Positions 649-20,535 of a DNA stretch of 26,042 bases are shown here, in pieces. The translations under genes and the position numbers were made by a program. The notes beneath the pieces are model-generated. The model ran no database searches and was not told where the DNA came from. It saw only the letters and a list, made by a program, of their open reading frames with translations. Location: positions 1 through 26,042 of IMG/VR virus record IMGVR_UViG_3300002835_000958; one strand, written 5' to 3'. The first letter of the stretch is position 1. Each line of letters begins with the position of its first letter. Origin of the DNA: a virus.

Positions 649-787
649 GCCCTTTTGGGGCCTGCCTCACGGCACCGAGACCCTCACCTCACGGCTCAAC
701 CGCCTCACGGCGTTTTCGGGCCGAGCCTGAGGCTCTCTGGCCGGACAATGATGTGCAGTTCCATATTCGCCTGATAGAATACCTGGT
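649..787 (+). other. intergenic region with three CCTCACGGC repeats and hairpins
   Basis: CCTCACGGC occurs three times (665-673, 687-695, 703-711). CGCC-TCAC-GGCG at 701-712 followed by TTTT could be a weak terminator. GAGCC-TGA-GGCTC (723-735), flanked by GGCC (719-722) and GGCC (739-742), can form a longer bulged hairpin. The region separates the 289 gene from the leaderless-type promoter of the 788 gene. Terminator function is inferred. Confidence 0.35.
775..787 (+). promoter_or_regulatory. -10 element of a leaderless-type promoter for the 788 gene
   Basis: TAGAAT (775-780) is followed by 7 nt and then the ATG at 788, so transcription would begin at or next to the start codon. No SD sequence precedes the ATG. 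TGTGCA (752-757) lies 17 nt upstream and is a poor -35 match. Confidence 0.5.
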
Positions 788-1516
788 ATGCCTCAGCCGA
801 TAGCGAACATCCCCCCGATCTCCTGCTACGTCCGCAAGGAGTACCTGCGCGACCTGCAGGACGGACACGGCGAGTTCACACCTGCCTACTGGGTATCCGT
901 AAAGGCGATTCGCCATCGAGCCCTCTACATTGAGGCGTTCCTCCCTGAGTACGGCGCCCTGTACGACAAGCTTCCCATCAGTGCCTTTACCTCTCGACCA
1001 GAGACTCCGAAGCCCGACCTTGCCCTTGGCAACCTACAGCTTTGGGATGCCAACTCCACCCAGGTGGCAGTCATCGAGAAGTCGGTCCTCAAGAATATGC
1101 GCTGCAAGTTCCGCACCCAGGAGGGAGGGTGGCACCACGGTCACTACCTCTTCACCGTAGATATGGTTCACTCGGACCCAAACGAGATCGACGCTAACTG
1201 GGCCAGGCTACCGGCAGAGCATAAGTCGTATAACTTTATTCGCCTGGACAACGGGCAGTACGCAGCCCAGCCAAACAACCGGGTCCTCTGGGAAGATGAG
1301 GCGCTGGTGTTCAAGACCCCGAAGCTTCCCGATTTCAAGGTAAGTACGAAGGAGTTCTCTGCTGAGGCGGGTAGGTGGAAGCTCGGCGACCAGGATAGCT
1401 GGAGCTATGAGGAGCAGGATGCGAAAGCTGAAAAGAAGTTCCTTCGCCCGATCAACCCTGATCCGGTGAAGGCAATAGCAAAGGAGATACACCGTGGAAG
1501 ACCTAAGACCTCTTGA
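788..1516 (+). CDS. hypothetical phage protein, 242 aa
   Basis: I cannot name a family. The protein is soluble, rich in aromatic residues and Trp, with a compact N-terminal part (residues 1-170) and a charged Lys/Glu-rich C-terminal tail (about 190-242). The tail ends in a basic stretch (RGRPKTS) that could touch nucleic acid. No signal peptide, membrane segment or enzyme motif is visible. The start is set by the -10 element 7 nt upstream, there being no SD. Its 3' end overlaps the next gene by 23 nt, so it opens a run of coupled genes reaching the tRNA. Confidence 0.7.
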   Translation: MPQPIANIPPISCYVRKEYLRDLQDGHGEFTPAYWVSVKAIRHRALYIEAFLPEYGALYDKLPISAFTSRPETPKPDLALGNLQLWDANSTQVAVIEKSVLKNMRCKFRTQEGGWHHGHYLFTVDMVHSDPNEIDANWARLPAEHKSYNFIRLDNGQYAAQPNNRVLWEDEALVFKTPKLPDFKVSTKEFSAEAGRWKLGDQDSWSYEEQDAKAEKKFLRPINPDPVKAIAKEIHRGRPKTS

Positions 1517-1733
1517 CGAGAAGCTTGACGAGAGCCTGACACAGGAAAGCTTCACTGCCGAAAGCCAGAAGTTCACATTGGGATTTCGACTGATATTGGG
1601 ATCTGAGGGGTCGGTGACCGCACTACCGCCCGATGGGCACGAGAAGCACACGATGACTGATGAGCAAATCATTGAGGCTGTCCGACATATGGTCGAGGGC
1701 GCCGAGGTCAACATTGTCGGCAGCAAAGACTGA
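1494..1733 (+). CDS. small hypothetical protein, 79 aa, GTG start
   Basis: The start is a GTG preceded by AAGGAG (1481-1486) with 7 nt spacing, which is better than any downstream ATG. The protein is acidic and has no recognisable domain; its C-terminal part (about 55-75, TDEQIIEAVRHMVEGAEVN) looks like one amphipathic helix. It overlaps the end of the 788 gene by 23 nt in another frame, suggesting translational coupling. The function is unknown. Confidence 0.6.
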   Translation: MEDLRPLDEKLDESLTQESFTAESQKFTLGFRLILGSEGSVTALPPDGHEKHTMTDEQIIEAVRHMVEGAEVNIVGSKD

Positions 1734-1749
1734 CGGAAACGACCCGGTC

Positions 1750-1890
1750 ATGGGCATGTGCAATTATTGCAATGAGCTCACCAAGGTCTACGAACAGGAG
1801 GACGAACACCGTTCTCTGTTCCTAGTCTGCAAGAGCTGTATTAAGGACATATTTGTCCGCATTGACATCGATGAGGCCCGAGATCAATGA
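1750..1890 (+). CDS. small zinc-ribbon-like protein, 46 aa
   Basis: The frame is open from further upstream, but the coding part most likely begins at ATG 1750 (or 1756), just after the stop of the previous gene. Two CxxC knuckles (CNYC near residues 4-7 and CKSC near 29-32), separated by a charged linker, indicate a four-cysteine zinc site. The stop overlaps the start of the glycosyltransferase gene in an ATGA tetranucleotide (1887-1890), so the two are probably co-translated. The exact start is uncertain because no clear SD is present. Confidence 0.5.
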   Translation: MGMCNYCNELTKVYEQEDEHRSLFLVCKSCIKDIFVRIDIDEARDQ

Positions 1891-2522
1891 ATGATATTTC
1901 CGTAGTCGTTCCGTACCGAGATCGGGCTGCCCACCTTGAGCAGTTCGTACCGGCGATCATCGGGGCGATTCCTGGCGTGGAGCTGCTTGTCGTTGAGCAA
2001 GGAAACGAGAAGCCGTTCAACCGAGGGGCACTCTGCAACGTCGGCTTTATTTTCTCCTCACACTCTCATATCATATTTCACGATGTAGACATGATTCCGC
2101 AGGGAGTTGACTACTCCCCACAGGACGGAGCCACCCACCTTGCGACTGCTGCAAGTCAGTTTGAATACAAGATGCCGTACCTTCAGTACTTTGGAGGGGT
2201 GACGATGTTCGACCGAAGTTCCTTCGCCGAGTGCAACGGATTCCCCACAAACTACTACGGCTGGGGGCTGGAAGACGACGCACTTCTCGACCGAGCAAAC
2301 CTGGCTGGTGTGAGGATTTCTCGACGGGATGGCCAGCGCTTCCTTAGCCTCGACCACGAGAGGCCATACGATAATAAGCCGCCCAAAGAGAACATTGATG
2401 TGCACTTCAAGGCGCTAGGGTCAAGAGTGGCGGTGATGGCCAACGGGCTAACGAGCATGCGCTACACACTTCAGTCTGTAACAATTCAGGACGGCTACAC
2501 CCATGTCGTGGTGGACATTTGA
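1887..2522 (+). CDS. beta-1,4-galactosyltransferase-like glycosyltransferase (GT7 family)
   Basis: The 211-aa protein carries the ordered motifs of the GT7/beta4GalT family: VVPYRDR (7-13), FNRGALCNVGF (44-54), FHDVDMIP with the metal-binding DxD-type DVD (64-71), YFGGVTMF (101-108) and NGFPTNYYGWGLEDDAL (117-133). In this family the DVD motif and the WGWG-(E/D)DD segment bind the sugar nucleotide and acceptor, so a GlcNAc- or glucose-type acceptor and a UDP-hexose donor are plausible. There is no membrane anchor, unlike animal homologues, so it should act in the cytoplasm. Targets could be host glycans, virion proteins or modified DNA; the sequence does not decide. It overlaps the upstream small gene by 4 nt. 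Confidence 0.85.
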   Translation: MNDISVVVPYRDRAAHLEQFVPAIIGAIPGVELLVVEQGNEKPFNRGALCNVGFIFSSHSHIIFHDVDMIPQGVDYSPQDGATHLATAASQFEYKMPYLQYFGGVTMFDRSSFAECNGFPTNYYGWGLEDDALLDRANLAGVRISRRDGQRFLSLDHERPYDNKPPKENIDVHFKALGSRVAVMANGLTSMRYTLQSVTIQDGYTHVVVDI

Positions 2523-2586
2523 CATTCCCCCGCGGATCATCTAGGCTTCATCCCCAGGCGTGAAGTTGCGCCAGAAAGGACAGGGT

Positions 2587-3057
2587 ATGGCGAAGAAAGA
2601 GACTAAACCGGAGGACTGCCAGCTGTGTGCATGCATCGGCTGCTCGGAGGGGAACTGCTGCGAGCACGAAGGAAGGCGAGACGTCTGGGAGCAGCTGTCT
2701 AGCGCAACTGGCCACTCCTACTTCATTCAGGACATCTTCAAGCGAAAGATGAGCGACCTATCAGATACCTCGCTTGCGCTTAGCGTTGGCCTAAACAATA
2801 AGACGCTTGAGTGGGAAGAGCGGGCGGCTATCATCGCAACCGGCGTAATGGCAATCCAGAAAATCATTGATTTAAGCGACTACGAGTACAGCCAGGTGTA
2901 CAATGACCCCAAGTGCGTTGCTTGCCAATGCGATCTGTGTAGAAAGAAAACGGAGGACATCATCCGCCGCTTGAAGGGCAACTGGGGAATGCCGGTTGTC
3001 AACACTTGCTGCGGCCATAAGGAGATGAGCGTCCATAGTGATGGCCTTCCGTTCTAA
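2587..3057 (+). CDS. cysteine-rich hypothetical protein, 156 aa
   Basis: The frame is open from a GTG at 2560, but ATG 2587 has a good SD (AAGGA at 2576-2580) and is preferred. Two cysteine clusters frame the protein: CQLCACIGCSEGNCC near the N-terminus and CVACQCDLC plus a later CC pair near the C-terminus. The middle (about 45-100) is helical and has no membrane segment. The clusters could hold zinc or an iron-sulfur centre. I do not recognise the family. The stop TAA is directly followed by the next in-frame ATG (3058). Confidence 0.6.
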   Translation: MAKKETKPEDCQLCACIGCSEGNCCEHEGRRDVWEQLSSATGHSYFIQDIFKRKMSDLSDTSLALSVGLNNKTLEWEERAAIIATGVMAIQKIIDLSDYEYSQVYNDPKCVACQCDLCRKKTEDIIRRLKGNWGMPVVNTCCGHKEMSVHSDGLPF

Positions 3058-3462
3058 ATGAAGGAGAAAGAAAATGGCAGGAAAGAGATTTCGAGCGAAG
3101 AAGAAAGCACGTTCCGTTACTCGGCGAAGATTGATCCCGGCGGGGACGGTCCTGAGCCTGTGTATCTTGACGCTGGTATGTATTTCTTTCGTGGTGGCGC
3201 AGGCCATTATCAGGGCCAAGTGATGTGGGGCTTGCTCGAAAACTCCAAGGAGATTGGCATGGTCGACAATATGTCACTCGAGTCAAGCTACGCGCTTTGG
3301 AGGCAGGGCGGCCTAAGAAACACTATGGCAATCTACGCCGCGAATAACCGGCCCTGCGAATGCGGCAACCCAGCCACTGAAAACGGACTGAGCTGCTTCA
3401 ACAGCAATCACGAAGTGATGCGGTCGGAGATGCGGCGGCTAAATATTGTGACGGAGGATTAA
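3058..3462 (+). CDS. hypothetical protein, 134 aa (or 79 aa from ATG 3223)
   Basis: The frame is open from an ATG immediately after the previous stop, but that ATG has no SD. Inside it, ATG 3223 sits in a TGATG overlap with the stop of a small membrane protein read in another frame (3074-3223), and could be the real start, giving 79 aa. The C-terminal part has CECGNPATENGLSC, a possible zinc-binding knuckle. The upstream part (about residues 20-55) is Gly-rich with normal codon choice, so the long form cannot be excluded. The function is unknown. Confidence 0.5.
   Translation: MKEKENGRKEISSEEESTFRYSAKIDPGGDGPEPVYLDAGMYFFRGGAGHYQGQVMWGLLENSKEIGMVDNMSLESSYALWRQGGLRNTMAIYAANNRPCECGNPATENGLSCFNSNHEVMRSEMRRLNIVTED
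3074..3223 (+). CDS. candidate small single-helix membrane protein, 49 aa
   Basis: ATG 3074 is preceded by AAGGAG (3061-3066) with 7 nt spacing, one of the better ribosome binding sites nearby. The product has a very basic N-terminus (MAGKRFRAKKKARSVTRRR), then one hydrophobic stretch (about residues 25-44, TVLSLCILTLVCISFVVAQA) ending in IIRAK. That is the layout of a small inner-membrane protein with its basic end in the cytoplasm. It lies within the 3058 frame, so at most one of the two readings may be used over this stretch. It would be coupled to ATG 3223 by a TGATG overlap. Confidence 0.45.
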   Translation: MAGKRFRAKKKARSVTRRRLIPAGTVLSLCILTLVCISFVVAQAIIRAK

Positions 3463-3463
3463 G

Positions 3464-5038: not shown

Positions 5039-5072
5039 GAGAAACCATGGAAACTGTTTCGTACAGCGCTGG

Positions 5073-5148
5073 GGGGGAGTAGCTCAAAGGTTAGAGCACC
5101 GAGCTTATATCTCGGCGGTTCCTGGTTCGAGTCCAGGCTCCCCTACCA
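5073..5148 (+). tRNA. tRNA-Ile (anticodon UAU), CCA encoded
   Basis: A full cloverleaf can be drawn. The acceptor GGGGGAG (5073-5079) pairs with CTCCCCT (5138-5144), with one G-U at the end. The D-stem is GCTC/GAGC (5082-5085/5094-5097). The anticodon stem is CCGAG/CTCGG (5099-5103/5111-5115) with loop CTTATAT, so the anticodon is TAT (5106-5108). The T-stem CCTGG/CCAGG (5121-5125/5133-5137) carries loop TTCGAGT. Discriminator A5145 is followed by encoded CCA (5146-5148). It would read the rare isoleucine codon AUA. Confidence 0.93.
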
Positions 5149-7566: not shown

Positions 7567-7900
7567 AACGTTCGAAGAGGCGTTCGAGGAGATTTACAAG
7601 GAGGCCTTCAACCTCCTGGTAGATAAGCAGCGCCGGTATGGCGACTCAAACATTGAGCAGCTGGGCCTCCATGGGGTTATTAGCAGGATTGCTCACGATA
7701 AGACCGCCCGCGCAAAGAAATTCCTTAATGGGAGGATTGAAAACGGCGTAGTAATTCTGGACAAGCTCCCAGACGGTCAGGACGAATCTATGGAGGATAC
7801 GTTGCTTGACATCGCCAACTACTCTCTAATCGCCGTTGCGCTTCTGCGCGGCGAGTGGGGCCACCCCATGAAAGAAAATGTCAATACCGATAAGATTTGA
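7526..7900 (+). CDS. DUF1599/Nmad1-like protein, 124 aa
   Basis: The pattern DKQRRYGDSN, GVISRIAHDKTARAKKF and ESMEDTLLDIANYSLIAVALL (about residues 33-107) matches the all-helical DUF1599 family, also called nucleotide modification associated domain 1, which is related to the MazG fold. Members occur in phages beside nucleotide and DNA-modification genes; a role on nucleotides is inferred from that company. Its start lies inside the 3' end of the MazG-like gene, so the two are co-translated. Its 3' end overlaps the convergent HNH gene by 20 nt. Confidence 0.75.
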   Translation: MASPSRQASTASPRTFEEAFEEIYKEAFNLLVDKQRRYGDSNIEQLGLHGVISRIAHDKTARAKKFLNGRIENGVVILDKLPDGQDESMEDTLLDIANYSLIAVALLRGEWGHPMKENVNTDKI

Positions 7901-8186
7901 TGCGTTCAGACTTTCGTCGGTTATTTTCGGCGGCGGTCACTTCCTCAAGGTGGGAAGGATTGACGCATTTACGGTTCTGACACAGGTGGTCAAGTTGAGT
8001 AGTTCGCGGAATGTCACGAACCTCTCGCTTATAGAGCCATCTGTGGGAGCTGACCTTCCAGCCACGCCACTTGAAAGCGCCGTACCCGTTTGGGTCGGTC
8101 GCACCGGTCCAGAACCAGCAAGTGGTTGTCTTTTCAACCATTGCCATAAATCTGTCCATCTCGTCTTGGGTGTATGCTGATGGCAT
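7881..8186 (-). CDS. HNH endonuclease (HNH_3 type), 101 aa
   Basis: The frame is open from 8351, but a leaderless-type promoter (TACAAT, 8199-8194) ends 7 nt before the ATG at 8186, so I start it there. The order is CWFWTGATDPNGYG (23-36), SSHRWLYK (47-54) and LDHLCQNRKCVNPSHLE (65-81), ending in VTAAENNRR. This is the classic small HNH fold, with the catalytic His in LDH, the Asn/His of NPSH, and zinc-binding Cys. Such free-standing nucleases nick or cut DNA and often spread as homing genes. It stands alone on the minus strand between plus-strand genes, as expected for an inserted mobile gene. Confidence 0.88.
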   Translation of the reverse strand: MPSAYTQDEMDRFMAMVEKTTTCWFWTGATDPNGYGAFKWRGWKVSSHRWLYKREVRDIPRTTQLDHLCQNRKCVNPSHLEEVTAAENNRRKSERIKSYRY

Positions 8187-8192
8187 GCGTGG

Positions 8193-8199
8193 TATTGTA
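8193..8199. promoter_or_regulatory. overlapping divergent -10 elements (8186 minus and 8205 plus genes)
   Basis: TATTGT (8193-8198, plus) and TACAAT (8199-8194, minus) are nearly the same seven base pairs read both ways. The plus -10 is 6 nt from ATG 8205 and the minus -10 is 7 nt from ATG 8186. Neither gene has an SD sequence, so both transcripts should be leaderless. Polymerase could bind in only one direction at a time, coupling the HNH gene and the plus-strand gene by exclusion. Confidence 0.5.
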
Positions 8200-8204: not shown

Positions 8205-8585
8205 ATGACTGATAACCAAGACCGCTGGGTTGGCGACGTCCCCCATTCCTGGAAGGGCGGATACTGGGGAGCGACCTGTCCGTTTTACGCCGACCATGGC
8301 CCGATGTGGGTTACCAAGGATGAGCTTTACGTGTGCTCTCACCGGGCGCACGACGGATTCTGGGGCAATATGCCAGACCTGCCTGGCTACGCAAAGCTAA
8401 GAGAGCAGTATCCTGACGGCATCGTTCCTGTGACCAAATCTTATTGGAGATCGTCCGATCTTGTCAGGCATTACTGGCCGGATGACCCAGCGGCAGGGAG
8501 CCAAGCCATCCGGCAGGAAGTATTATCACCGGATTACGAGTCAATAGATGGATTAGAGAATCCTGCGCTAGAAGCTAATTCTTAG
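8205..8585 (+). CDS. hypothetical protein, 126 aa
   Basis: I do not recognise this protein. It is soluble, rich in aromatic residues, and has CPFYADHG and CSHRAHDG about 18 residues apart (about 25-50), a possible Cys/His zinc site. The C-terminal half is polar, with a helix (SSDLVRHYWPDDPAAGSQAIRQEV). The start is fixed by the -10 element 6 nt upstream. It converges with the small minus-strand gene at 8575, overlapping it by 11 nt. No paralogue is visible in the window. Confidence 0.6.
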   Translation: MTDNQDRWVGDVPHSWKGGYWGATCPFYADHGPMWVTKDELYVCSHRAHDGFWGNMPDLPGYAKLREQYPDGIVPVTKSYWRSSDLVRHYWPDDPAAGSQAIRQEVLSPDYESIDGLENPALEANS

Positions 8586-8784
8586 CCCTCACGACAGCGA
8601 TCCACCCCGCCTCCATGTCGTCAAGCGTAGCGTAAATCTCCCCAAGCTCGTCAGTCAGAACGAATGAAGATCCATCCTTGTTAGGCGCAACGTCAACCCC
8701 AGGCATATCCAAAACGCCGGAAAGGTGGATTGCGTACACCAAGTCGGTTGGCGGCTCAGGATAGGTTTCCTCGATTTTGGCCAT
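8575..8784 (-). CDS. small acidic hypothetical protein, 69 aa
   Basis: A longer frame is open from 8982, but TATACT (8796-8791) ends exactly 6 nt before the ATG at 8784, and the extra upstream part would be antisense to the ParB-like gene. The 69-aa product is acidic and soluble with a beta-rich look (DLVYAIHLSGVLDMP, then SSFVLTDELGEIYATLDDMEAGWIAVV). It has no recognised family. As a single minus-strand gene with its own promoter it fits the pattern of a phage moron. Confidence 0.55.
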   Translation of the reverse strand: MAKIEETYPEPPTDLVYAIHLSGVLDMPGVDVAPNKDGSSFVLTDELGEIYATLDDMEAGWIAVVRAKN

Positions 8785-8809: not shown

Positions 8810-8824
8810 TGATAACATCTACCC
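8810..8824 (+). promoter_or_regulatory. extended -10 of the 8825-16074 operon
   Basis: TGA-TAACAT (8810-8818) is an extended -10 element. The hexamer 8813-8818 ends 6 nt before ATG 8825, and there is no SD. It is the only clear promoter in front of the long ten-gene operon. A recognisable -35 is not seen, which fits extended -10 promoters. Confidence 0.55.
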
Positions 8825-9517
8825 ATGGAATCAAATATTGCGCAGGGGATTTCACATCTCGCCATCCCTCTTTTCGACGTTGCCCCGCACCCTAAAAATG
8901 CGCGACGCGGCGATGTAGAGAAGATTGCCGAGAGCCTGAAGAAGTTTGGGCAGCAAAAGCCCATCGTTGCCCAGAAAGGCACAAAATTCGTTATTGCCGG
9001 TAATCACACTTGGCATGCGGCGAAAAGCCTTGGATGGGAGACAATTGCGTGTCACTTCACTGACTTGTCGGAGAAGGAGGCGCAGGGGTATCTAATTGCA
9101 GACAACCGCACAAGCGACCTGGCAGAGTATGACCCGAAGGCGCTGGCGAGGTTGCTCGTTGACATGAGAACCGGCAATGATCTCGAGGGAACGGGATTCA
9201 TGAGCTCCGACGTAGATGCAATCCTGAGGGAAAGTCTCATCTTGGCAGACGAGGTTGGATCATTCCTTGATGATTTCATCTCGTCTCTTGGCGACGGGCC
9301 AGACCAGGTCCAGGGCGCGGAGCTCGACGGGGAGAGACTGGTGAGGCTGTCTTACGAATCAGCCGGTGGTAGGCCGGTTGCAATTAAAAAGCTTAATGTT
9401 ACCGAAATGATTAGTCTCATGAGGGGAATCGATAGTGCCAGGGACAAATTCCGAGTGGAATACCCAGGAGAGGCATTGTCAAAAATCGTAGAAGATTGGA
9501 GCGAGGAAAATGGCTGA
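8825..9517 (+). CDS. ParB-like nuclease-domain protein, 230 aa
   Basis: Residues 12-115 form a ParB/Srx-type domain: HPKNARRGDVEKIAESLKKFGQQKPIV, then FVIAGNHTWHAAKSLGW with the GNHxxHAA signature of phage ParB-like proteins, then GYLIADNRTSDLAEYD. In this superfamily the GxxR/GNHR region binds nucleotide or phosphate. Many phage copies have no known job, though some act as nucleases or regulators. The C-terminal 110 residues are unlike chromosomal ParB: there is no obvious HTH, but a late acidic helix. It heads the operon and overlaps the cupin gene by 8 nt. It resembles, but is not identical in layout to, the protein at 19690. Confidence 0.8.
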   Translation: MESNIAQGISHLAIPLFDVAPHPKNARRGDVEKIAESLKKFGQQKPIVAQKGTKFVIAGNHTWHAAKSLGWETIACHFTDLSEKEAQGYLIADNRTSDLAEYDPKALARLLVDMRTGNDLEGTGFMSSDVDAILRESLILADEVGSFLDDFISSLGDGPDQVQGAELDGERLVRLSYESAGGRPVAIKKLNVTEMISLMRGIDSARDKFRVEYPGEALSKIVEDWSEENG

Positions 9518-9956
9518 GCTACTTAAGATTATCAATGTTGCGGAGTTGGCGCTTGCTAAGCCCGACACCGCCATTCCCGTGGTCGGAGCGGACGCGCGTG
9601 GGCAAAACATCGCCACCAACGGGAAGCTTGGTGCAGACATCCTTTGGGTTCCGTCCAACGCATCCTTCCCAATCCACACCCACCCAGGCGACCATCTCTT
9701 GATGTGCCTTGAGGGTGAGGGGACCATCTCGTTTGATGGCCAGAAGATTGATGTTCGACCTGGCGACATGTATATGATCCCTGGCATGATTCCTCATGCA
9801 GTAGGCGCAGGCGCTGCAGGCCACGTTCTGCTTGCAATCGGTAGCCCACATAAGCCGGTGGACGCCCCTGATCGAATGAAGCCAACCGACTGGCAGGGAA
9901 ATGCCGTAGAGGCCCCGATATTCGATGACAGCGAGGCGAAGAAGCAGGACGAGTAA
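9510..9956 (+). CDS. cupin-domain protein, 148 aa
   Basis: Residues 44-112 form a single conserved cupin barrel. Motif 1 includes FPIHTHPGDHLLMCLEGEG (about 52-71), with the two His and following Glu expected to bind a metal, and motif 2 includes PGDMYMIPGMIPHAV (about 85-100) with its His. Small cupins can be isomerases, dioxygenases, sugar-binding proteins or metal-dependent regulators; the sequence does not decide. The C-terminal 30 residues are polar and acidic. It overlaps the ParB-like gene by 8 nt and touches the amidoligase start by 1 nt, so it belongs to that pathway. Confidence 0.85.
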   Translation: MAELLKIINVAELALAKPDTAIPVVGADARGQNIATNGKLGADILWVPSNASFPIHTHPGDHLLMCLEGEGTISFDGQKIDVRPGDMYMIPGMIPHAVGAGAAGHVLLAIGSPHKPVDAPDRMKPTDWQGNAVEAPIFDDSEAKKQDE

Positions 9957-10846: not shown

Positions 10847-11616
10847 AGATCAAGGAGATTAACTGGAGAATCCCATTTGCCTTGCGCAACTATGGTCCCA
10901 ACTACATGACCTACGGATTTGAAAGAGCAGCAGAGCCATCAACGACTTGGTGGGGCCTGCATGTTGACGGGAATCTTGTCTCGTTTGGCCGACTTGACAT
11001 CCCGCCACGCGGGGCATGCACGCTGGGCTCTCTTTGGACAATGCCAGAGTACCGCGGCAAGGGATACGGCAAAATACTTGTCGAGCACCGGCTGAAACTC
11101 GTCGGCGACCGAGACGTTAAGACAATAACTAGAGCTGCTGAAATATATGAAAAGTTTGGATTTGTCAATGCGGGTATTGTCGCGCAGAGAGACGAGGGAA
11201 CTTGGTTCCGGATGATTCTTAAGCGAGGAGCTCCTGGCAAGCTTTCGAAGCGGGCAATCATTGTCGATATCGACGAGACGCTCATTGATAGCGAGGGGAA
11301 TACCATTCAGTCAACAATGGATTGGGTTCAGGAGAACAGAAAAGGTAGGTCCGTTATTATTTTGACTGCGAGGGCTGAAGAGTCAAGGGAGCGCACCGTG
11401 GAAAGCCTAAAGAAGGCCGGTATAAAGTATGACGAGTTGTTCATGAGCGACCTTCCTGCCGGTGCGTATGTAGAGTCAAAGCGCTGGAGAGTTAATAAGC
11501 TACTCGAGGATAACTACATCCTGGACATGGCAATAGACGACGATCTCGACGTGCGAAAGATGTACGAATCGCTTGGTGTTGGCGAAGTAGTCGACCCGGA
11601 GGAACTCAATGGATAG
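10837..11616 (+). CDS. GNAT acetyltransferase-HAD phosphatase fusion, 259 aa
   Basis: Two domains are joined. Residues 1-130 are a GNAT fold: LGSLWTMPEYRGKGYGKIL (63-81) contains the acetyl-CoA loop RGKGYG, and AAEIYEKFGFVNAG (100-113) is the usual late GNAT motif. Residues 138-259 are a HAD phosphatase: VDIDETLID (143-151) has the nucleophile D144 and acid D146, ILTARAEES (175-183) is motif II, and AIDDDLDV (232-239) supplies the last metal-binding aspartates. The HAD part resembles that of phage polynucleotide-kinase phosphatases. All key residues are present, so both halves should be active. The substrate might be acetylated and dephosphorylated in sequence. GGAGG precedes the start, and both ends overlap neighbours. 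Confidence 0.85.
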   Translation: MAIEIKEINWRIPFALRNYGPNYMTYGFERAAEPSTTWWGLHVDGNLVSFGRLDIPPRGACTLGSLWTMPEYRGKGYGKILVEHRLKLVGDRDVKTITRAAEIYEKFGFVNAGIVAQRDEGTWFRMILKRGAPGKLSKRAIIVDIDETLIDSEGNTIQSTMDWVQENRKGRSVIILTARAEESRERTVESLKKAGIKYDELFMSDLPAGAYVESKRWRVNKLLEDNYILDMAIDDDLDVRKMYESLGVGEVVDPEELNG

Positions 11617-12958
11617 CCTTGATATTCTAACTTTCGACCCGAGGACCGGGGAGTCAAGAGCTAAGTTTGAGTCTGCCAACGCAAAGACGGTAATGGAGGC
11701 GCTTTCCTCTGCGCGGACGGCCCTTCCAGGCTGGGCTAATTTGACTTACGCCGATCGATCAAAGTTCATGTTTCAGCTGGCCGATGGCATGGAGCGAAGG
11801 ATCGATGAGCTTTGCATGTTTGAGTCGATGAACACCGGGAAGCCAAGATCGCAAGCCCTCAGTGAAATAAACCACGCGATCGACACTATTCGTTTTTTTG
11901 CTGGTGCAGCCCGAACGCAAACGTCTACAATTCCAGGCGGCTATATGGAAAACACATTTTCGTATGTGACAAGAGAGCCAGTTGGGGTTGTTGGAGTCAT
12001 TCTCCCCTGGAATTACCCGACAGTTATTTGGGCCTGGAGGATTGGGGCAATCCTCGCCTCCGGATCAACAGCAGTAGTAAAGCCAGCAGAGCAAACCCCG
12101 TACTCTGCGGTACTCCTACAAGACATCTGTCTCGAGAACCTGCCATTGGGCGTCGTATGCACAGTACTCGGCGGAGAGGAGACCGGCAAGGCAATGACAT
12201 CAGCAAACTTTGACTGCATCGCTTTCACCGGATCCACTTCAGTCGGCAGGGAGATCTCCAGGGAAGCATTCCCGGCAAAAACATCTCTAGAGCTTGGTGG
12301 TAACGGACCAGTAATATTTTTTGAAGACGCCCCCGGCCGAGCGGCAAAAGATATCGCTGCGGCTGCGCTCTACAACAACGGTCAATCCTGCGCAGCTCCA
12401 GCACGTGTTATCGCTGTTGGCAAAGCCGCCTTTGAGAGGGCTGCCAGGGAGCTAACCGAGGAATTTTCTTCGGTGCCAACGAACATGCCGTCAATCAGCA
12501 TTGAGCAGGCGGAGAAGATTGAGAGATTCATCTCCGAGACCAGCGGTGACGTAGTCCGGGGTACCACGACCCAAGAACCCGGGAAAGAAGACCGGGGGTA
12601 TTGGGTAAAACCAGCCCTTGTGATTAACCCATCGCCAGTGGACGACGTTGTTTCCTGCGAGGTATTCGGACCGGTCCTGACGGTTCAGCTTGCGTCCGAT
12701 CTTCGGCAGGCTGTTGAGATGGCAAATATGTTTGGCCCCGGGCTCTCTGGTTCGGTATGGGGTTCCGATTTGACAAACATCAAGGTATGCGAGCAGGCTA
12801 TGGATGTAGGTGAAGTCTGGGTCAACTGCCACCTTGCCCAAACGCCAGAGATACCGCATCCCGGAAGAGGATTGAGCGGAAACGGTGCCGACATGGGGGC
12901 CGACGCAATCCGAGAGTACCAGCACGTCAAGGCAGTACACGAGAGGTACGCACGATGA
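11609..12958 (+). CDS. aldehyde dehydrogenase (NAD(P)-dependent), 449 aa
   Basis: The protein has the complete ALDH plan. It has PWNYPTV with N135, VVKPAEQTP with K158, the cofactor loop FTGSTSVGREI (206-216), the general base in LELGG (E228), the nucleophile in NNGQSCAAP (C261), and the cofactor-holding Glu of EVFGPVL (E351). It is somewhat shorter than the usual 470-500 aa, mainly in the segment after the catalytic Cys. It would oxidise an aldehyde to an acid with NAD(P)+ and looks closest to the betaine/aminobutyraldehyde-type enzymes, though substrate cannot be read from sequence. ALDH is rare in phages. GGAGG lies before the ATG and both ends overlap neighbours (8 and 4 nt). Confidence 0.93.
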   Translation: MDSLDILTFDPRTGESRAKFESANAKTVMEALSSARTALPGWANLTYADRSKFMFQLADGMERRIDELCMFESMNTGKPRSQALSEINHAIDTIRFFAGAARTQTSTIPGGYMENTFSYVTREPVGVVGVILPWNYPTVIWAWRIGAILASGSTAVVKPAEQTPYSAVLLQDICLENLPLGVVCTVLGGEETGKAMTSANFDCIAFTGSTSVGREISREAFPAKTSLELGGNGPVIFFEDAPGRAAKDIAAAALYNNGQSCAAPARVIAVGKAAFERAARELTEEFSSVPTNMPSISIEQAEKIERFISETSGDVVRGTTTQEPGKEDRGYWVKPALVINPSPVDDVVSCEVFGPVLTVQLASDLRQAVEMANMFGPGLSGSVWGSDLTNIKVCEQAMDVGEVWVNCHLAQTPEIPHPGRGLSGNGADMGADAIREYQHVKAVHERYAR

Positions 12959-13803
12959 GGCGTAGGTACCCGGGGCTTGATATCACCAACAATGGCACAA
13001 TCGCCACGAATACGCGCCGAGGGAAGAAGTGGGACGACGTAACAATTTGGCAAGCATATGACGAAATTGAGAAATACGTCCCTACGTCGTGGCTTGAAGA
13101 CAGGATCGACGAGGCAACCCGAAGGATTGAGCTGGCTAAGCAGAAGTATCCCGGGAAGGTAACAGTCGGGTGGAGCGGCGGCAAGGACGCGCTCGTCGCA
13201 GAGCGGGTTCTGAGGATCGTTGGCTACGACGCCGGTGTTGCGGCCCTGTATCGCTGCGCTAAGGTCGCCGAGATGCACGAGTACGTCGCCGACCACAAGC
13301 CGGAAAAAATCGAGATAATCGAGATAGGGCCAGATAACTCCTGGGTCATTAAGAATAAAAACAGCGTTTGGGGACAAAATCCTCCAGCGAAACTTGCGAA
13401 TTTCCACGCGCCAGCGCAAAGGGAATGGTGCTATAAGAACAGGTCGGCGCTGCACATCACGGGTAGGCGGATGGACGACCAAAACCACTGCGGCAAGCAC
13501 GACAGGAACCTGGGCGGAGTTCAAGCCCCGCGCGGCAGGGGAACTGTAAGCCTTGCGCCAATCTACGACTGGTGGCACGAAGAAATACTGGCCGCCATTA
13601 AGTACTTTAATCTCAATCTGGCCCCTACATATAAGGGCCAGTACGGATTCATTATCGGGTCAAACAGTAATTGGGTTGACCTGGCTGACCTTGTTGGAAG
13701 ATCCGATATAACTCTATTCCCGACTATTGTAGAATTTAGAGATTGGATTGGACGGGTTGCCCCCAAGAGCATTCCGGAATTTGATGAGATTATGAGCGCA
13801 TGA
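12955..13803 (+). CDS. PP-loop ATPase, PAPS reductase-like (adenine nucleotide alpha hydrolase fold), 282 aa
   Basis: The P-loop VGWSGGKDALVA (71-82) with SGGKD is the PP-loop of the ATP pyrophosphatase/PAPS reductase superfamily. QREWCYKNRSALHI (about 159-172) and the Cys/His set in DDQNHCGKHD are candidates for substrate or metal binding. Family members activate substrates by adenylation or reduce PAPS; examples in nucleic-acid chemistry include DndC and tRNA thiolation enzymes. There is no C-terminal ECGLH-type motif as in classic PAPS reductase. It overlaps both neighbours by 4 nt (ATGA), directly next to a second, longer PP-loop protein. Confidence 0.8.
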   Translation: MRRRYPGLDITNNGTIATNTRRGKKWDDVTIWQAYDEIEKYVPTSWLEDRIDEATRRIELAKQKYPGKVTVGWSGGKDALVAERVLRIVGYDAGVAALYRCAKVAEMHEYVADHKPEKIEIIEIGPDNSWVIKNKNSVWGQNPPAKLANFHAPAQREWCYKNRSALHITGRRMDDQNHCGKHDRNLGGVQAPRGRGTVSLAPIYDWWHEEILAAIKYFNLNLAPTYKGQYGFIIGSNSNWVDLADLVGRSDITLFPTIVEFRDWIGRVAPKSIPEFDEIMSA

Positions 13804-15197
13804 CAGAAGAGCAGAAGAGCCACTTTGACATTAACCCAGACACGTTCTGGGAGAGTGCGGCTTCGGCCAAACACGGCACGAAGGACCAACGTGAGTACGC
13901 GCCCAATAGCGTTCGCCGTCGCGTTGGAATTGGGAAGAATGTGTGGGAAGCAGCCCTGGACAGGATGAGGTTTATCTTTGCAAACTTCGAGGAGGTCGTC
14001 GTATCGTTCAGCGGCGGCAAGGATAGCACCGCGACCATGATGGTTGCCTACGAGGTCGCAAAAGAGCTAAACAGGCTCCCGCTCCGCGTTATTTTTATTG
14101 ACGAAGAGGCTATCCCGTACCAGACCGAAGAGTACGTCCGAAGGGTTTCTCAACTTCCAGGAGTTCAGCTCGATTGGTACTGCCTGCCGATTCGACACCG
14201 AAACGCTTGCTCAAGGGAAAACCCGTGGTGGTTCCCATGGGCACGAGAGGAGCAGGATAAGTGGGTACGTCCAATGCCACCAGAGGCAAACGCAAGAATT
14301 GACGAACAGCCAGTGCTAAAAGAGTGGATGGAAAGGGCACACGCTGATCCAGAGCTTCGTGTCATGTACCCGGACATCAACGACATCATGGCCGACCCTG
14401 CTGGAACTGGAAAAAAGACGATCATGCTTATCGGACTGCGCGCGCAGGAGAGCATCCGAAGAATGAGGCTTGTGTCGAAGCGTCCTGGCTCCAAGGCCAA
14501 TTACATTGTTACCGACGGGATCGATAAGCACGGAGTTCAGCTTAAATCGCAAAAGTACACACCGAGGATCTTCAAGGGATATCCGGTCTATGACTGGACG
14601 AATAACGACATCTGGACAGCGGTTAGGAAGTTTGACTGGGACTACAACCAGTTGTACCGACACATGGTCATGGCGAAAATCCCCGTTAACAAGGTTCGAG
14701 TTGGTCCTCCCTACGGCGAGGAGCCGATGATCTCTCTTTGGATGTTCTCAAAGGTCGCACCGGAGGTCTGGGACCGCATGGCCCACCGTGTTCCCGGTGC
14801 AAACACTGGCGCAATGTACGCCCATACCGAGCTCTGGGGCGTTGGAATCCCACCGAAGCCTACTGACTTGAGCTGGGAACAATATATGGTGCACTACATT
14901 AAAAAGTTCCGGCCGGAGGATCAGAAAGTTATTGCGAAGCGAATTCGAAGATGGATTGGGTGGCACCACGCTAAGACCAACGATCCGATACTGCCAAATG
15001 CTCCGCATCCGCTCACCGGGATAAGTTGGGGCTTCCTCATGAGCGTGGCAATGCGTGGAGATTTCAAGAACCGGAAGGAGCCACCAGCGCCAAAGACCAC
15101 CGAGCGAGAAAAGGCGATGGTAGAGAACTACAAGATCGAGTATCGTATGCTTGCTGAGAGCGGAGAGCTTTCAACCTGGAGAGTAAAGAGGGGATAA
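13800..15197 (+). CDS. IbrA-like PP-loop protein (PAPS reductase domain, DUF3440-like), 465 aa
   Basis: Residues 50-170 carry the PP-loop VVVSFSGGKDSTATM (66-80), and FIDEEAIPYQTEEYVRRV is the segment following the second strand. Further on, LIGLRAQESIRRMRLV matches the GxRAQES signature of the IbrA family, and VYDWTNNDIWTAVRKFD is the matching C-terminal PAPS reductase motif. The last third corresponds to the extra C-terminal region of IbrA-type proteins. In E. coli IbrA, with IbrB, activates expression of prophage eib genes; the chemistry is not established. Here it is followed after 1 nt by an IbrB-like gene, as in the known pair. Confidence 0.83.
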   Translation: MTEEQKSHFDINPDTFWESAASAKHGTKDQREYAPNSVRRRVGIGKNVWEAALDRMRFIFANFEEVVVSFSGGKDSTATMMVAYEVAKELNRLPLRVIFIDEEAIPYQTEEYVRRVSQLPGVQLDWYCLPIRHRNACSRENPWWFPWAREEQDKWVRPMPPEANARIDEQPVLKEWMERAHADPELRVMYPDINDIMADPAGTGKKTIMLIGLRAQESIRRMRLVSKRPGSKANYIVTDGIDKHGVQLKSQKYTPRIFKGYPVYDWTNNDIWTAVRKFDWDYNQLYRHMVMAKIPVNKVRVGPPYGEEPMISLWMFSKVAPEVWDRMAHRVPGANTGAMYAHTELWGVGIPPKPTDLSWEQYMVHYIKKFRPEDQKVIAKRIRRWIGWHHAKTNDPILPNAPHPLTGISWGFLMSVAMRGDFKNRKEPPAPKTTEREKAMVENYKIEYRMLAESGELSTWRVKRG

Positions 15198-15198
15198 T

Positions 15199-15720
15199 AT
15201 GGAAAAGGTAATAGGACGAGATAAGCAGCCGCTAGCGAAGGTTGAGTGGGTCGACCGCAATACGCTTCGTGCAAACGACTACAACCCAAATCACGTAGCG
15301 CCGCCAGAGCTTGAGCTGTTGAAGCTAAGCATCATGGAGACAGGCTGGACACAGCCGATCGTAGCGCGCCGAAGCGGGGAGATTGTCGACGGATTCCACC
15401 GATGGACATGCTCCGGAGACCCAAGGGTCGGTGAAATGACAGACTTCCTTGTTCCGGTAGTGTTCATCGATGTCGATGCAGCCACGCAGCGTATGGCAAC
15501 GATTCGGCACAACCGCGCACGCGGTAGCCACGGCGTGGTCCGGATGGCTGACATTGTTGCCGAGCTTGCCGACGATATGAAGCTCCCAAAGGCCGAGATT
15601 ATGCGACGCCTTGGAATGGATAACGAAGAGTTTGAGCGGTTGCTTGACCGCGGAGATATCATTAAGCGCCTTGCAAGAGATGATTTTAACGAGGCGTGGG
15701 CACCAGAGGAGGATAAGTAG
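15199..15720 (+). CDS. IbrB-like ParB-domain protein, 173 aa
   Basis: The first 100 residues are a ParB/Srx domain: NTLRANDYNPNHVAPPELELLKLSI (13-37), WTQPIVARRSGEIVDGFHRW (43-62), and MATIRHNRARGSHGVVRMADIV (about 93-114). The order NDYNPN, VAPPE, DGFHR and the RARGSH block is the pattern of IbrB partners. The rest (115-173) has a helix with a HTH-like look (PKAEIMRRLGMDNEEFERLLDRG). GAGGGG gives it an SD and it starts 1 nt after the IbrA-like gene. A regulatory or nucleic-acid-acting role together with IbrA is inferred. The last base of its stop is the first base of the next GTG. Confidence 0.82.
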   Translation: MEKVIGRDKQPLAKVEWVDRNTLRANDYNPNHVAPPELELLKLSIMETGWTQPIVARRSGEIVDGFHRWTCSGDPRVGEMTDFLVPVVFIDVDAATQRMATIRHNRARGSHGVVRMADIVAELADDMKLPKAEIMRRLGMDNEEFERLLDRGDIIKRLARDDFNEAWAPEEDK

Positions 15721-16104: not shown

Positions 16105-16124
16105 GTACCCGAAGGAGGTGCCTT

Positions 16125-17099
16125 ATGGCCCACGAAGTAGAAAGCATGGCGTTCGTCGGAAACCGAGGTTTGCCCTGGCACGCAGGAGCAACCGCAGGCT
16201 TAATTGAAAATCTTGCCGACCTAGCGAAGGCCGACCAGATGATTGCGGCTGCTAAGCTCGGATGGAAGGTGAACCAGATGCCGATCGTTGTTGACGGGAT
16301 CGGTGCGCACATCCCAGACAAGGTGGCAAACGTCCGCGATTCTGACCACAAGGTGCTGGGCATCGTCAGCCAGCGGTATAAGGTCGTCCAGAACGATCGA
16401 ATCTTTGAGTTTGCTGAGGACCTGTGTGGTGTCGGCGGGCGATTTGAGACAGCTGGATCTCTTCGCAACGGGGAGATTATCTTCTCCTCAATTGAACTGC
16501 CGCATGACTTTGTCGTCGATGGGGACGTGAGTAAGGTAAAGACATATCTTCTTGTCTCAAATGGCCACGACGGAATCCACGCCTTCAAGGCCTGCATTAC
16601 TCCGGTGCGAGTCGTCTGCATGAACACCCTTAACGCTGCGTTCCGTGGCGCCAAGGACAAGTTCTCTATTCGCCACACCGAAAACATTGCCGGAAGGATC
16701 AACCAGGCCCGTGAAATCCTTAAGCTTACGACATCCTACATGGATGACTTTAAGGTCATGGCAAACAACATGGCACACACCGTAATCACAATCCCAGAAG
16801 GGCTGGCTATGGTGAAGAGCATCTTCCCGCTCACTGAGGACGAGAAGCGCGGTGGGGCAGAGATGTCTATCAATGCCCAGAAAGTTATGGGTAATTGGCT
16901 CGAGTCGCAGAACATTGAGTCTGTCCGCATGACTAAGTGGGGGCTTTGGAACGCGATCACTGAGTTCATTGACCACGGGATGGCCTACCGCGGCGGAAAG
17001 ACGAGCTCAGTCTCCGACGCAAAGGCAGAGTCTATTTTGTTTGATGGGTACGCAGCGAGAGCTAAAAAGGCCTCGCTCGAATCTGTCATGAGTTCTTGA
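16125..17099 (+). CDS. DUF932 family phage/plasmid protein, 324 aa
   Basis: The protein matches the DUF932 (phage/plasmid-like, TIGR03299-type) family throughout. It has an N-terminal 'FVGNRGLPWHAGA' opening, the GIVSQRYKVVQNDRIFEFAEDL segment (about 77-100), GRFETAGSLRNGEIIFSSIELP, then VRVVCMNTLNAAF (about 163-175) and a helical C-terminal half. The biochemical role is not settled; members sit in phages and plasmids beside DNA-metabolism genes. A canonical promoter and one of the strongest ribosome binding sites in the window suggest high expression. It is followed by a gap of only 7 nt. Confidence 0.83.
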   Translation: MAHEVESMAFVGNRGLPWHAGATAGLIENLADLAKADQMIAAAKLGWKVNQMPIVVDGIGAHIPDKVANVRDSDHKVLGIVSQRYKVVQNDRIFEFAEDLCGVGGRFETAGSLRNGEIIFSSIELPHDFVVDGDVSKVKTYLLVSNGHDGIHAFKACITPVRVVCMNTLNAAFRGAKDKFSIRHTENIAGRINQAREILKLTTSYMDDFKVMANNMAHTVITIPEGLAMVKSIFPLTEDEKRGGAEMSINAQKVMGNWLESQNIESVRMTKWGLWNAITEFIDHGMAYRGGKTSSVSDAKAESILFDGYAARAKKASLESVMSS

Positions 17100-17106
17100 G
17101 GTAATT

Positions 17107-17669: not shown

Positions 17670-19115
17670 CGAAAGGCCTCTGCTCCCAGATGTGAAATAG
17701 AACGTTGACCCGGTAAGATCAGCAGCATACCCAAGGGCGTCGACCATGTCGTCGTGAGTACTGTTTGGGAATGTGAGCATCTCCCTCTCAAGAGCGTCTA
17801 TTCCTGGGCCGCCCTTCAGGTGAAAGACTTTTCCTGCCTCATACCTTGCAGCCAAAGCCCGGGCGCGGATTACCTTGTCTCGGTCTGGACGTACAGCCTT
17901 TGCTGGGAGTCGCGTCTCGGCGAGAAGCTCGCGGATAAAGGTTGCCTGGTACTGCACTGACTCAATGTTTACCGCCTCCATAAAGCGTGGCTCGTCTACC
18001 TGGTCTATATCCTGCCCCTTCAGTCCAATCAACCTTGCTGGCCAAGAAACACGGGGACTCGTCTCATCGTTCAGCAACCCGCCGTCCTTGTCAATACCGG
18101 TAAGCCAGTACCTGTGCCCCTCTTGAATTCTTGAGCGGTAAGCCCCGACCACGTAAAGGTTGCCGGAGCTGTCTTCAACAACCTCCACCGCAGCGGTATA
18201 GTCGGAGCGCTCATTGGCGGAGGCTGCAAGGTCAACGCCTATCCTGCGGGACCCGTGGGGAATTTTATCAACATGCTGTACCCAGTCATGGCGGAAGATA
18301 TTTCCGCCCATTTGAGTTACGTCATTTTGGAACTGGAGTGAGAAGATTGGCCCGCCAAGCTCTTCACGCTTCCTTTCCAAGTCGGCGAGGCTGAAGTACC
18401 CGGGCCATAGTGGCTTATTGTCTTCGATGGCGGCCCTTCGGAGTGTTGGTATGCCTCTAGCATGCAGCCTGGCGTAGAAGTCGTCTTCATGCCAGCGCGT
18501 CCCGATGTACCATCTCTTAGCTCCAGGAACAAGCATCGGGTCAACGACCTGCCAGTAGATTTCTTCTGCCTTCTTTCTGGCACCAGCGGTAGAGTTTTCG
18601 CGCAATCCGACCATGTCGTCTGCGAGGAGAATGTCAAGACGCGGCCCAGGCTTTACAGACGTCAGACCGTCAGCGAAACAGGTCGTATCTTTACCAAGGT
18701 CAACCCCCTTGACAATCCAGACGGCGTCCGTCCACTTTCTGCCGACAACGCCATCCTTCGCCCACGGGAACACCTCTGCAAAGTATGGTGACTCTACAAG
18801 CGTCTTAATGGCCCGGGATCGAGCAATGCCGTCGCTCTGTACGGCCGTGAGGACTCCGATCCTAACTTTGCCGCGAGTCTCACCAACAAGTCTTGCAACC
18901 CTGTGTATTAACATCGTTGTCTTCGCGTGGCCGCGAGGCATAAGGACCAAGGCAGTGTCGTTCTTGTCTAGGAACTTTTCCATTCCAACAAGGTGCCTTG
19001 GAAAGACAAGGCCAGACATGTACTCAGCAAAGGCAGCGTCACTCGTGGCCGCCTGAACGCGAAGCCACTCTCGGTACTGGGCCTGCGGGCTACTTTGCGG
19101 GTTCGGTGAGGACAA
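17664..19115 (-). CDS. terL: terminase large subunit
   Basis: The 483-aa protein has an N-terminal ATPase and a C-terminal RNase H-fold nuclease. The P-loop is PRGHAKTT (60-67), a variant of the terminase Walker A. ILLADD (162-167) is the Walker B, with Asp in place of the usual Glu at the second position. Nuclease residues are GVDLAAS (D295), SDYTA (D305) and HDDMVDAL (454-461). It cuts and pumps DNA into the head. It starts at TTG 19115 with GGAG 7 nt upstream and overlaps the small-subunit gene by 26 nt. It lies on the minus strand, unlike the tail genes. Confidence 0.93.
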   Translation of the reverse strand: MSSPNPQSSPQAQYREWLRVQAATSDAAFAEYMSGLVFPRHLVGMEKFLDKNDTALVLMPRGHAKTTMLIHRVARLVGETRGKVRIGVLTAVQSDGIARSRAIKTLVESPYFAEVFPWAKDGVVGRKWTDAVWIVKGVDLGKDTTCFADGLTSVKPGPRLDILLADDMVGLRENSTAGARKKAEEIYWQVVDPMLVPGAKRWYIGTRWHEDDFYARLHARGIPTLRRAAIEDNKPLWPGYFSLADLERKREELGGPIFSLQFQNDVTQMGGNIFRHDWVQHVDKIPHGSRRIGVDLAASANERSDYTAAVEVVEDSSGNLYVVGAYRSRIQEGHRYWLTGIDKDGGLLNDETSPRVSWPARLIGLKGQDIDQVDEPRFMEAVNIESVQYQATFIRELLAETRLPAKAVRPDRDKVIRARALAARYEAGKVFHLKGGPGIDALEREMLTFPNSTHDDMVDALGYAADLTGSTFYFTSGSRGLSL

Positions 19116-19632
19116 CTTTGTTCTCCGTAAACTCTAGGTTTTCCTTCTCGATATCGTCCTCATTCCTGAGGTTCTCAGCCCACTCAGTGAGCCGCGCAGC
19201 GATCTTCTCGCTGTCGAGAGAGTCAATGTTGTGCTCCTGGGCAATCATGACTGGACCGCCACCCTCGCCGGTTAGCTCGGTCTTTTCTGGTGCGTATGCG
19301 CCGACCATTTTGGCAACTGTCTGCACAGCCTCCATCTGAAGCCTGAGGAAGGCAACCTCAGCACTACCACCACGGGAACGAGCGGCCCCAGCCGCGGCAT
19401 CTCGACTTATCTGTCGAATTTTATCCATGAGCTCGCCGCGAACAACCGGAATATCAAGCTTCTCGGCCGCCCACTCTTTCTTGATGACGGACATGTGGTG
19501 ATAGATGCTATCGATGCTTAGATCGCAAGCCTTGGCTATCTGGGCGTATGGAACCCCGTTCAGGTACAAGGCTTTGATCTTCTCCCTGAGGGCCTCCATT
19601 TCGGCCGCTGGTTTTCTTCCTGGTCTACCCAT
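19090..19632 (-). CDS. terS: terminase small subunit
   Basis: The N-terminal third has an HTH (residues 24-46, NGVPYAQIAKACDLSIDSIYHHM) and starts MGRPGRKPAAEME, typical for DNA-recognising small terminase subunits. The middle, with RQISRDAAAGAARSRGG, is the helical oligomerisation-type region, and the tail (135-180) is acidic. AAGGAGG precedes the start on the minus strand. It would select the packaging site and hand DNA to the large subunit encoded immediately downstream. The adjacent non-coding stretch (19633-19689) is shared with the divergent ParB-like gene. Confidence 0.83.
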   Translation of the reverse strand: MGRPGRKPAAEMEALREKIKALYLNGVPYAQIAKACDLSIDSIYHHMSVIKKEWAAEKLDIPVVRGELMDKIRQISRDAAAGAARSRGGSAEVAFLRLQMEAVQTVAKMVGAYAPEKTELTGEGGGPVMIAQEHNIDSLDSEKIAARLTEWAENLRNEDDIEKENLEFTENKVVLTEPAK

Positions 19633-19674
19633 TTGGCTGCCTCCTTATTAGCAGTGTCAGGATATTAACACATA

Positions 19675-19689
19675 TGTTATGATACACGC
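19675..19689 (+). promoter_or_regulatory. extended -10 of the 19690 gene (leaderless type)
   Basis: TGT-TATGAT (19675-19683) is an extended -10 element ending 6 nt before ATG 19690; no SD is present. TGTCAG lies 17 nt upstream (19655-19660), similar to TGTCTG at the matching place before the 20536 gene. Confidence 0.55.
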
Positions 19690-20214
19690 ATGCCAGAAGA
19701 CATTAAGATCCTTCAAGAGTCAATAGAGATGGTCGATACAGACTCCATCGACCCCCACCCAGAAAACCCACGGGTTGGAGATATCGGGGCCATTATCAAC
19801 AGCATGAGAACTAATGGGTTCTTTGGAGCCCTAATCGCCCAGAAGTCTACTAGGCACGTTCTGGTCGGAAATCACAGGCTTCATGCGGCAACATGGCTAA
19901 AAATGCCACAAGTCCCGGTTATTTGGGTAGATGTCGATGATGTTAAGGCAAAAAAGATCATGCTTGCAGACAACCGAGTTTCTGACCTGGGGAGCTATAA
20001 CGACGACGTCCTGCTCAGCCTGATTAAGGACCTTACTGACGAAAAGGTCAACGTTGCCGCGCTGGGGTACGACGACGACGATATTGAAGACATCATTAAG
20101 CGGGCAAATGAGCCGATGGACCTAAACGTGGAGGCCGAGCCGGAAAAGAAAGATCGGGTTGCTCGATGCCCCCAGTGCAACTTCGAATTTACGCCTAGCA
20201 GACCAGGTCGCTAG
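19690..20214 (+). CDS. ParB-like protein with C-terminal zinc knuckle, 174 aa
   Basis: A ParB/Srx domain covers residues 10-110: IDPHPENPRVGDIGAIINSM, VLVGNHRLHAATWLKM with the GNHRxHAA signature, and IMLADNRVSDLGSYNDD. An acidic linker with DDDDIEDIIKR follows, then a basic tail with CPQCNFEFTP (about 157-166), a half zinc knuckle. This layout, close to the terminase genes, is common in phages. A role in packaging control or DNA cutting is possible; nothing in the sequence proves catalysis. Its start is fixed by the leaderless-type promoter. It overlaps the minus-strand gene at 20195 by 20 nt. Confidence 0.82.
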   Translation: MPEDIKILQESIEMVDTDSIDPHPENPRVGDIGAIINSMRTNGFFGALIAQKSTRHVLVGNHRLHAATWLKMPQVPVIWVDVDDVKAKKIMLADNRVSDLGSYNDDVLLSLIKDLTDEKVNVAALGYDDDDIEDIIKRANEPMDLNVEAEPEKKDRVARCPQCNFEFTPSRPGR

Positions 20215-20458
20215 AGAACGGCGCCTGGGCCTCAAAATCCTCCATATCCGGCTCCCTAAACCCCTCAGGGATATCCATCCAAAGGATAATCATTCGGTAT
20301 GAGTCGTCGCTTGCGGCTTCACCCAGCTTGTTTGCCGCCAAGACTACCGCTCCGCGAGCATCAGCGGCCAGGTCGACCCAGCCGGGCCCAAGAACCTTCC
20401 AATACGGGGCCTTGCCACCGACGTGCCTGATGACGACTCGGATCTCTTCGTTCCGCAT
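20195..20458 (-). CDS. small hypothetical protein, 87 aa
   Basis: The frame is open from 20497, but TACAAT (20470-20465) ends exactly 6 nt before the ATG at 20458, so that start is preferred. The protein has a beta-rich N-terminus (EIRVVIRHVGGKAPYWKVLG), a helix with several alanines and an acidic tail (PDMEDFEAQAPF). No family is recognised. It is a single minus-strand gene between plus-strand genes, like those at 8184 and 8784, and has its own promoter. Confidence 0.5.
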   Translation of the reverse strand: MRNEEIRVVIRHVGGKAPYWKVLGPGWVDLAADARGAVVLAANKLGEAASDDSYRMIILWMDIPEGFREPDMEDFEAQAPFSSDLVC

Positions 20459-20464
20459 AATCCG

Positions 20465-20470
20465 ATTGTA
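20465..20470 (-). promoter_or_regulatory. -10 element of the 20458 minus-strand gene
   Basis: TACAAT on the minus strand, 6 nt from the ATG, with no SD. It has the same hexamer as the promoter of the HNH gene. Confidence 0.5.
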
Positions 20471-20523
20471 CACGACAGGAAAGAGCAGAACACGCAACGA
20501 TGTCTGTCAGCTCGCACTAAATG

Positions 20524-20535
20524 TATCATTAGGTA
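20524..20535 (+). promoter_or_regulatory. -10 element before the tail gene block
   Basis: TATCAT (20524-20529) is followed by 6 nt and ATG 20536. TAGG just before the start is too weak a SD to be sure it is used. TGTCTG lies 17 nt upstream (20501-20506). This is the first promoter of the tail operon. Confidence 0.45.

Follow-up and report, generated by a model that had tools for sequence, protein, structure and literature searches.

Predicted leaderless gene starts, marked by −10 elements at a fixed distance from ATG, in a phage whose likely host is a streamlined Chloroflexota

Introduction

What signals the start of a gene at the head of an operon when its ATG is preceded by no convincing Shine-Dalgarno (SD) sequence? 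The question is raised by IMG/VR record IMGVR_UViG_3300002835_000958, whose entire length of 26,042 bases (GC 53%) is the window analysed here. In bacteria, the TA-led leaderless genes carry TANNNT about 12 bp (counted from its first T) 5' of the start codon and no SD, an arrangement significant against shuffled sequences (Zheng et al. 2011, PMC3160421). Among phages, lambda cI gives a leaderless mRNA, and according to a review such mRNAs for the most part attach to 70S ribosomes directly (PMC9031893). For cluster O mycobacteriophages leaderless promoters PL1 and PR2 are predicted with the +1 on the first codon (PMC4351075), and another mycobacteriophage gene has a predicted leaderless promoter (PMC11373665). 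Leaderless initiation is well established and already predicted in other phages; the present case belongs with these, its phage group and likely host being different ones. No description of leaderless starts in phages of Chloroflexota was found in the open-licence literature.

Gene starts in the window

The ORF table and the sequence were read manually for gene starts, giving 44 starts, 11 of them operon heads, and the gap was taken as the number of nucleotides between the end of the TANNNT hexamer and the ATG. A hexamer at gap 6 or 7 precedes eight of the 44 starts, which are eight of the 11 heads (six at gap 6, two at gap 7), and none of the remaining 36. All eight sites of the original prediction are present exactly at the positions and gaps that it gave. 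The −10 elements and their genes are:

775..780 (+), −10 TAGAAT, TGn-extended, gap 7 to ATG 788
788..1516 (+), predicted leaderless gene, phrog_3704 ('ferredoxin'), sharing 52% identity with a protein of a cyanophage
7881..8186 (−), predicted leaderless HNH endonuclease gene, −10 TACAAT (8194-8199), gap 7
8205..8585 (+), predicted leaderless gene, function unassigned, −10 TATTGT (8193-8198), gap 6
8575..8784 (−), predicted leaderless gene, function unassigned, 69 aa
8791..8796 (−), −10 TATACT, gap 6 to ATG 8784−
8813..8818 (+), −10 TAACAT, TGn-extended, gap 6 to ATG 8825
8825..9517 (+), predicted leaderless ParB-like gene, heading a long operon
19678..19683 (+), −10 TATGAT, TGn-extended, gap 6 to ATG 19690
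19690..20214 (+), predicted leaderless ParB-like gene
20195..20458 (−), predicted leaderless gene, function unassigned, 87 aa
20465..20470 (−), −10 TACAAT, gap 6 to ATG 20458−
20524..20529 (+), −10 TATCAT, gap 6 to ATG 20536
20536..20931 (+), predicted leaderless gene, heading an operon that continues into the tail genes

A TG lies close 5' of every one of the eight −10 elements, as TGn in four and immediately adjacent in four. At individual sites of the window the −35 matches are weak (2-4 of 6 positions), so that the promoter call depends on the −10.

TANNNT is a loose motif, found at 0.9% of positions, and stands at gap 6 or 7 before 15 of the 764 other ATGs of the window (2.0%). Against this background the binomial p is 2e-6 for eight of 44 starts and 3e-12 for eight of 11 heads; for the heads it becomes 8e-7 when five candidate ATGs are allowed per head, as a correction for a choice of starts guided by the motif. 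Pairing with the 16S tail separates the two sets of starts (Mann-Whitney p = 1e-4): the eight leaderless starts range from −4.7 to +0.8 kcal/mol, whereas the other 36 mostly fall between −6 and −16. These energies bear out, for most of the 36, the earlier statement that the eight starts lack a convincing SD while other genes have one. Three heads depart from the layout and are SD-led:

289..648 (+), SD-led head gene, SD AGGGAG
16125..17099 (+), SD-led DUF932 gene, strong SD, −16.2 kcal/mol
19090..19632 (−), small terminase-like gene next to the large terminase gene, SD-led in the window and of the leaderless type in most relatives

The heads had been said to follow the rule almost without exception, DUF932 and terminase apart; both of these exceptions were confirmed (16125 and 19632−), and gene 289 has to be added as a third. 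The three corrections of gene starts proposed for the minus strand all agree with the leaderless layout, although their backing by homology differs: that of 20458− is also supported by more distant relatives (one codon off), those of 8186− and 8784− by near-identical phages only.

Related phage loci

A terminase search gave 190 related IMG/VR stretches, of which 80 were retained, and the spacing was analysed in 82 related phage loci. Before the gene-start ATGs of these loci TANNNT is found at gap 6 in 102 sites, against roughly 16 at other gaps (16 at gap 5, 24 at gap 7). With a codon-trained gene caller the gap-6 hexamer precedes 101 of 997 candidate ATGs, whereas 100 dinucleotide shuffles gave a mean of 12.4 and a maximum of 23. 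The spike is not one family counted repeatedly, since 20 protein families carry the hexamer at gap 6 as compared with 3-12 at other gaps; the small terminase is the largest contributor. When the same script was applied to two proteobacterial phages (GC 46-49%) as negative controls, the peak was absent, and the layout was present at 0 of 31 annotated starts in one and at 1 of 68 in the other. The comparison of spacing with random ATGs or shuffled sequence, which the original prediction had named as its own check, upholds the excess both in the window and in the relatives.

The logo of the gap-6 sites, picked by TANNNT and ATG alone, contains a TATAAT-like hexamer, a −35-like TTGG at a 17-nt spacer and a pyrimidine (C/T) at −1. 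A −10 at gap 6 together with a −35-like element at 17 nt would make the A of the ATG the canonical +1. Two further features were seen in related loci L010-L097: a secondary, lower peak of TANNNT at gap 11 (41 sites) and a T at −17 in 59% of the gap-6 sites, which perhaps belong to an extended −10.

Two modes of start at one gene

Homology through a conserved N-terminus, MAK.GR or MGRPGR, fixes the start codon of the small terminase-like gene (19632−). Of the 34 distinct upstream regions that this gene has in the phages, 27 are of the leaderless type, with TANNNT at gap 6 (one at gap 7) and weak SD pairing, and in the other seven, the window included, the −10 lies at 25-31 nt and an SD is placed between the −10 and the ATG. 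About three switches between the two layouts are counted on the tree, a rough number in view of its long branches. These upstream sequences support the view of the small terminase start as a natural experiment in which SD and leaderless layouts would be mutually exclusive, and the gene offers a ready comparison for the passage between two modes of translation start.

Gene 788, leaderless-type in the window, is SD-led in the near-identical phage L001, whose version of the protein is 95% identical and follows a different upstream sequence. In orthologues of 20536 at 48-50% identity gap 6 is retained, with TATGCT and TAAAGT in place of the hexamer TATCAT; in this comparison of sequences the conserved feature is the distance and not the letters of the hexamer.

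Likely host

Searching 84,980 bacterial and archaeal genomes with a terminase alignment gave four strong matches, of 54-55% identity, all in Chloroflexota, and a search within the Chloroflexota class concerned found six strong carriers among 177 species; in this class search no related terminase was found in the small host-candidate genomes. A second marker is a tRNA gene:

5073..5148 (+), tRNA-Ile(UAU), used as host marker, matched at 96-97% identity by tRNAs of small Chloroflexota genomes

A tRNA-Ile with anticodon UAU is an unusual means of reading AUA in bacteria. The phage tRNA is 97, 96 and 96% identical to those of three genomes of 1.1-1.2 Mb in the class and 87-90% to those of most of the group's remaining small genomes; in a sample of the phylum beyond this class, identity reaches at most about 82% over most of the length. 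GC and gene content (transporters, UbiA, competence protein) give the contig of genome G136 with the matching tRNA a chromosomal appearance. Contigs L236-L250 of this assembly average 46% GC as compared with 61% for L231, and the assembly may therefore be mixed. The aldehyde dehydrogenase of the phage, taken as a further marker, found no counterpart in the class at E <= 1e-100. The GC content counts against the link (61-63% in the small host-candidate genomes, 53% in the phage), as does the lack of a related terminase in those small genomes.

The start signal itself was found in this group. For the GC-rich genomes a codon-trained gene caller was used in place of simple longest-ORF calling, and in the small genome G139 (461 kb, 63% GC) TANNNT stands at gap 6 before 49 of 430 candidate ATGs, against 2.0 in shuffled sequence, which corresponds to about 14% of genes. 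Raw pattern counts over the class, made without gene calls, are above the reversed control in most genomes; no excess over that control was seen in G155-G178, and G044 gave a strong excess, although the stretches analysed held too few genes for a spike. The host is likely a streamlined Chloroflexota, and the claim that it tolerates leaderless mRNA finds support in the gap-6 spike of this group. The class is presumably Limnocylindria and the small genomes presumably Ca. Limnocylindrus. The description of SL56/Limnocylindria in PMC6169038 also enters into this assumption. The phage itself is presumably of freshwater, lake-type origin.

Alternative explanations

The spacing might be a product of chance or selection, created by picking starts and hexamers by eye, as TANNNT occurs so readily and the starts were chosen with the motif in mind. 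We give this next to no credence: the significance holds with five candidate ATGs per head, independent spikes occur in the relatives and in the likely host, and starts are anchored through protein homology. The hexamer could instead be an A/U-rich translation signal inside a normal leader, with the true promoter further upstream, since some bacteria begin many genes without an SD (PMC3160421). The fixed 6-nt spacing, the resemblance to TATAAT, the −35-like element at the right spacer and the pyrimidine at −1 make this very improbable, and the SD-led small terminase genes, in which the hexamer has moved away from the ATG and an SD is added, speak against it as well. It is likewise hardly to be expected that the promoters are real and transcription starts 1-3 bases before the gene or a few bases inside it, giving very short leaders or a later start codon. 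Two sites do have gap 7, and the choice of start site may shift by a base or two, but gap 6 is much preferred over 5 and 7 (102 against 16 and 24), which would fix the +1 on the A of the ATG, and N-termini are conserved from that same ATG.

The mechanism might also operate as described in an actinobacterium, the customary candidate where leaderless genes occur; actinobacteria have about 19% predicted leaderless genes on average (PMC3160421). This guess was abandoned because WhiB is absent from 28 related phages; with strong terminase relatives in Chloroflexota only, and the tRNA-Ile(UAU) matching small Chloroflexota genomes, an actinobacterial host is improbable.

Proposed mechanism

The explanation that very probably accounts for these observations is one of sigma-70-type −10 elements placed for leaderless mRNAs and read by a streamlined Chloroflexota host. 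From the hexamer, its spacing, the absence of an SD, the conservation and the signal in the host group we infer the +1 position, the transcription, the translation from a 5' AUG and the identity of the host. The eight TANNNT hexamers would be the −10 elements of sigma-70-type promoters, often TG-extended, recognized by the host polymerase. Transcription would begin with the A of the start codon, give or take one base, a one-base leader being possible at the two gap-7 sites, and the ribosome of the host, itself rich in leaderless genes, would initiate directly at the 5'-terminal AUG of the resulting mRNA. Downstream genes of the operons and the three SD-led heads would be initiated through their SD sites. 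That starts are signalled in a leaderless manner is supported by the significance in the window, by the spike in the 82 related loci that is absent from the proteobacterial phages, by the gap conserved in orthologues and by the exclusivity at the small terminase.

The window genes resemble TA-led genes in having TANNNT at the same distance above chance, no SD and a spacing conserved across orthologues. TA-led genes were, however, defined as a statistical class of cellular genes, and of 12 Chloroflexi genomes just 4 had leaderless genes in that survey, at about 4.7% (PMC3160421), against about 14% in G139. As with lambda cI (PMC9031893), phage genes are predicted to be translated from a 5'-terminal AUG; cI is a single gene in a host with rare leaderless mRNAs, whereas in the window eight of 11 heads are concerned and the likely host group is rich in them. 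The cluster O mycobacteriophages differ in their actinobacterial host, and the passage on PL1 and PR2 does not describe them as sharing one −10 (PMC4351075). The same layout in relatives and likely hosts indicates that the finding is real, yet of a known type. For a large group of uncultured phages it would provide a dependable guide to where genes and their promoters start, and it would link this group to streamlined Chloroflexota, for which few viruses are described.

A −10 probably shared by two divergent genes

The start codons of 8186− and 8205+ have 18 bases between them, and within these lies:

8193..8199 (both strands), near-symmetric −10, predicted to be shared, TATTGT on + (8193-8198) and TACAAT on − (8194-8199)

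With the hexamers taken as −12 to −7, positions −7 and −11 fall in both strands on the same two base pairs, 8194 and 8198. In promoters that work in both directions from a symmetric −10 (Warman et al. 2021, cited through PMC10268837) −7 and −11 of both strands likewise coincide, the divergent starts are 18 bp apart and T occupies −18 on both strands. Here the A's of the two start codons are 19 apart, and 18 is obtained only for a minus transcript that begins one base ahead of its ATG; with that +1 at 8187, position −18 is T on the minus strand (8205) and G on the plus strand (8187). In the same source the divergent RNA is often antisense and non-coding, whereas in the window both predicted +1s are start codons of genes. 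A search for further copies of the pair in 1.28 Mb of phage and 0.65 Mb of small-genome sequence found only near-identical L001 and one chance-like site. From this geometry a single −10 would serve both 8186− and 8205+. Tentatively, and with some doubt, we suggest that this one element drives two divergent mRNAs, each starting on its own start codon, that the 18-bp spacer could hold all promoter and start signals of the HNH endonuclease gene and its neighbour, and that polymerase bound in one direction might exclude the other, as in an either-or switch.

Other features of the window

Homologues of the 788-1516 protein are found mainly in cyanophages (S-TIM5 and others), where they are annotated as PurM or ferredoxin. 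A 49-aa ORF at 3074-3223 (+), out of frame within ORF 3058-3462, is preceded by the strong SD AAGGAGA and probably encodes a membrane segment. It had no match in Pfam and is possibly an overlapping gene. The operon at 9510-15720 (+), headed by the predicted leaderless ParB-like gene 8825, contains cupin, amidoligase, GNAT-plus-HAD, aldehyde dehydrogenase and PAPS-reductase-like genes, which together suggest a pathway that modifies small molecules or a surface. The record has three ParB-like genes in all (8825, 15199 and 19690, all +), and Microbacterium phage Leaf likewise has three, beside its terminase.
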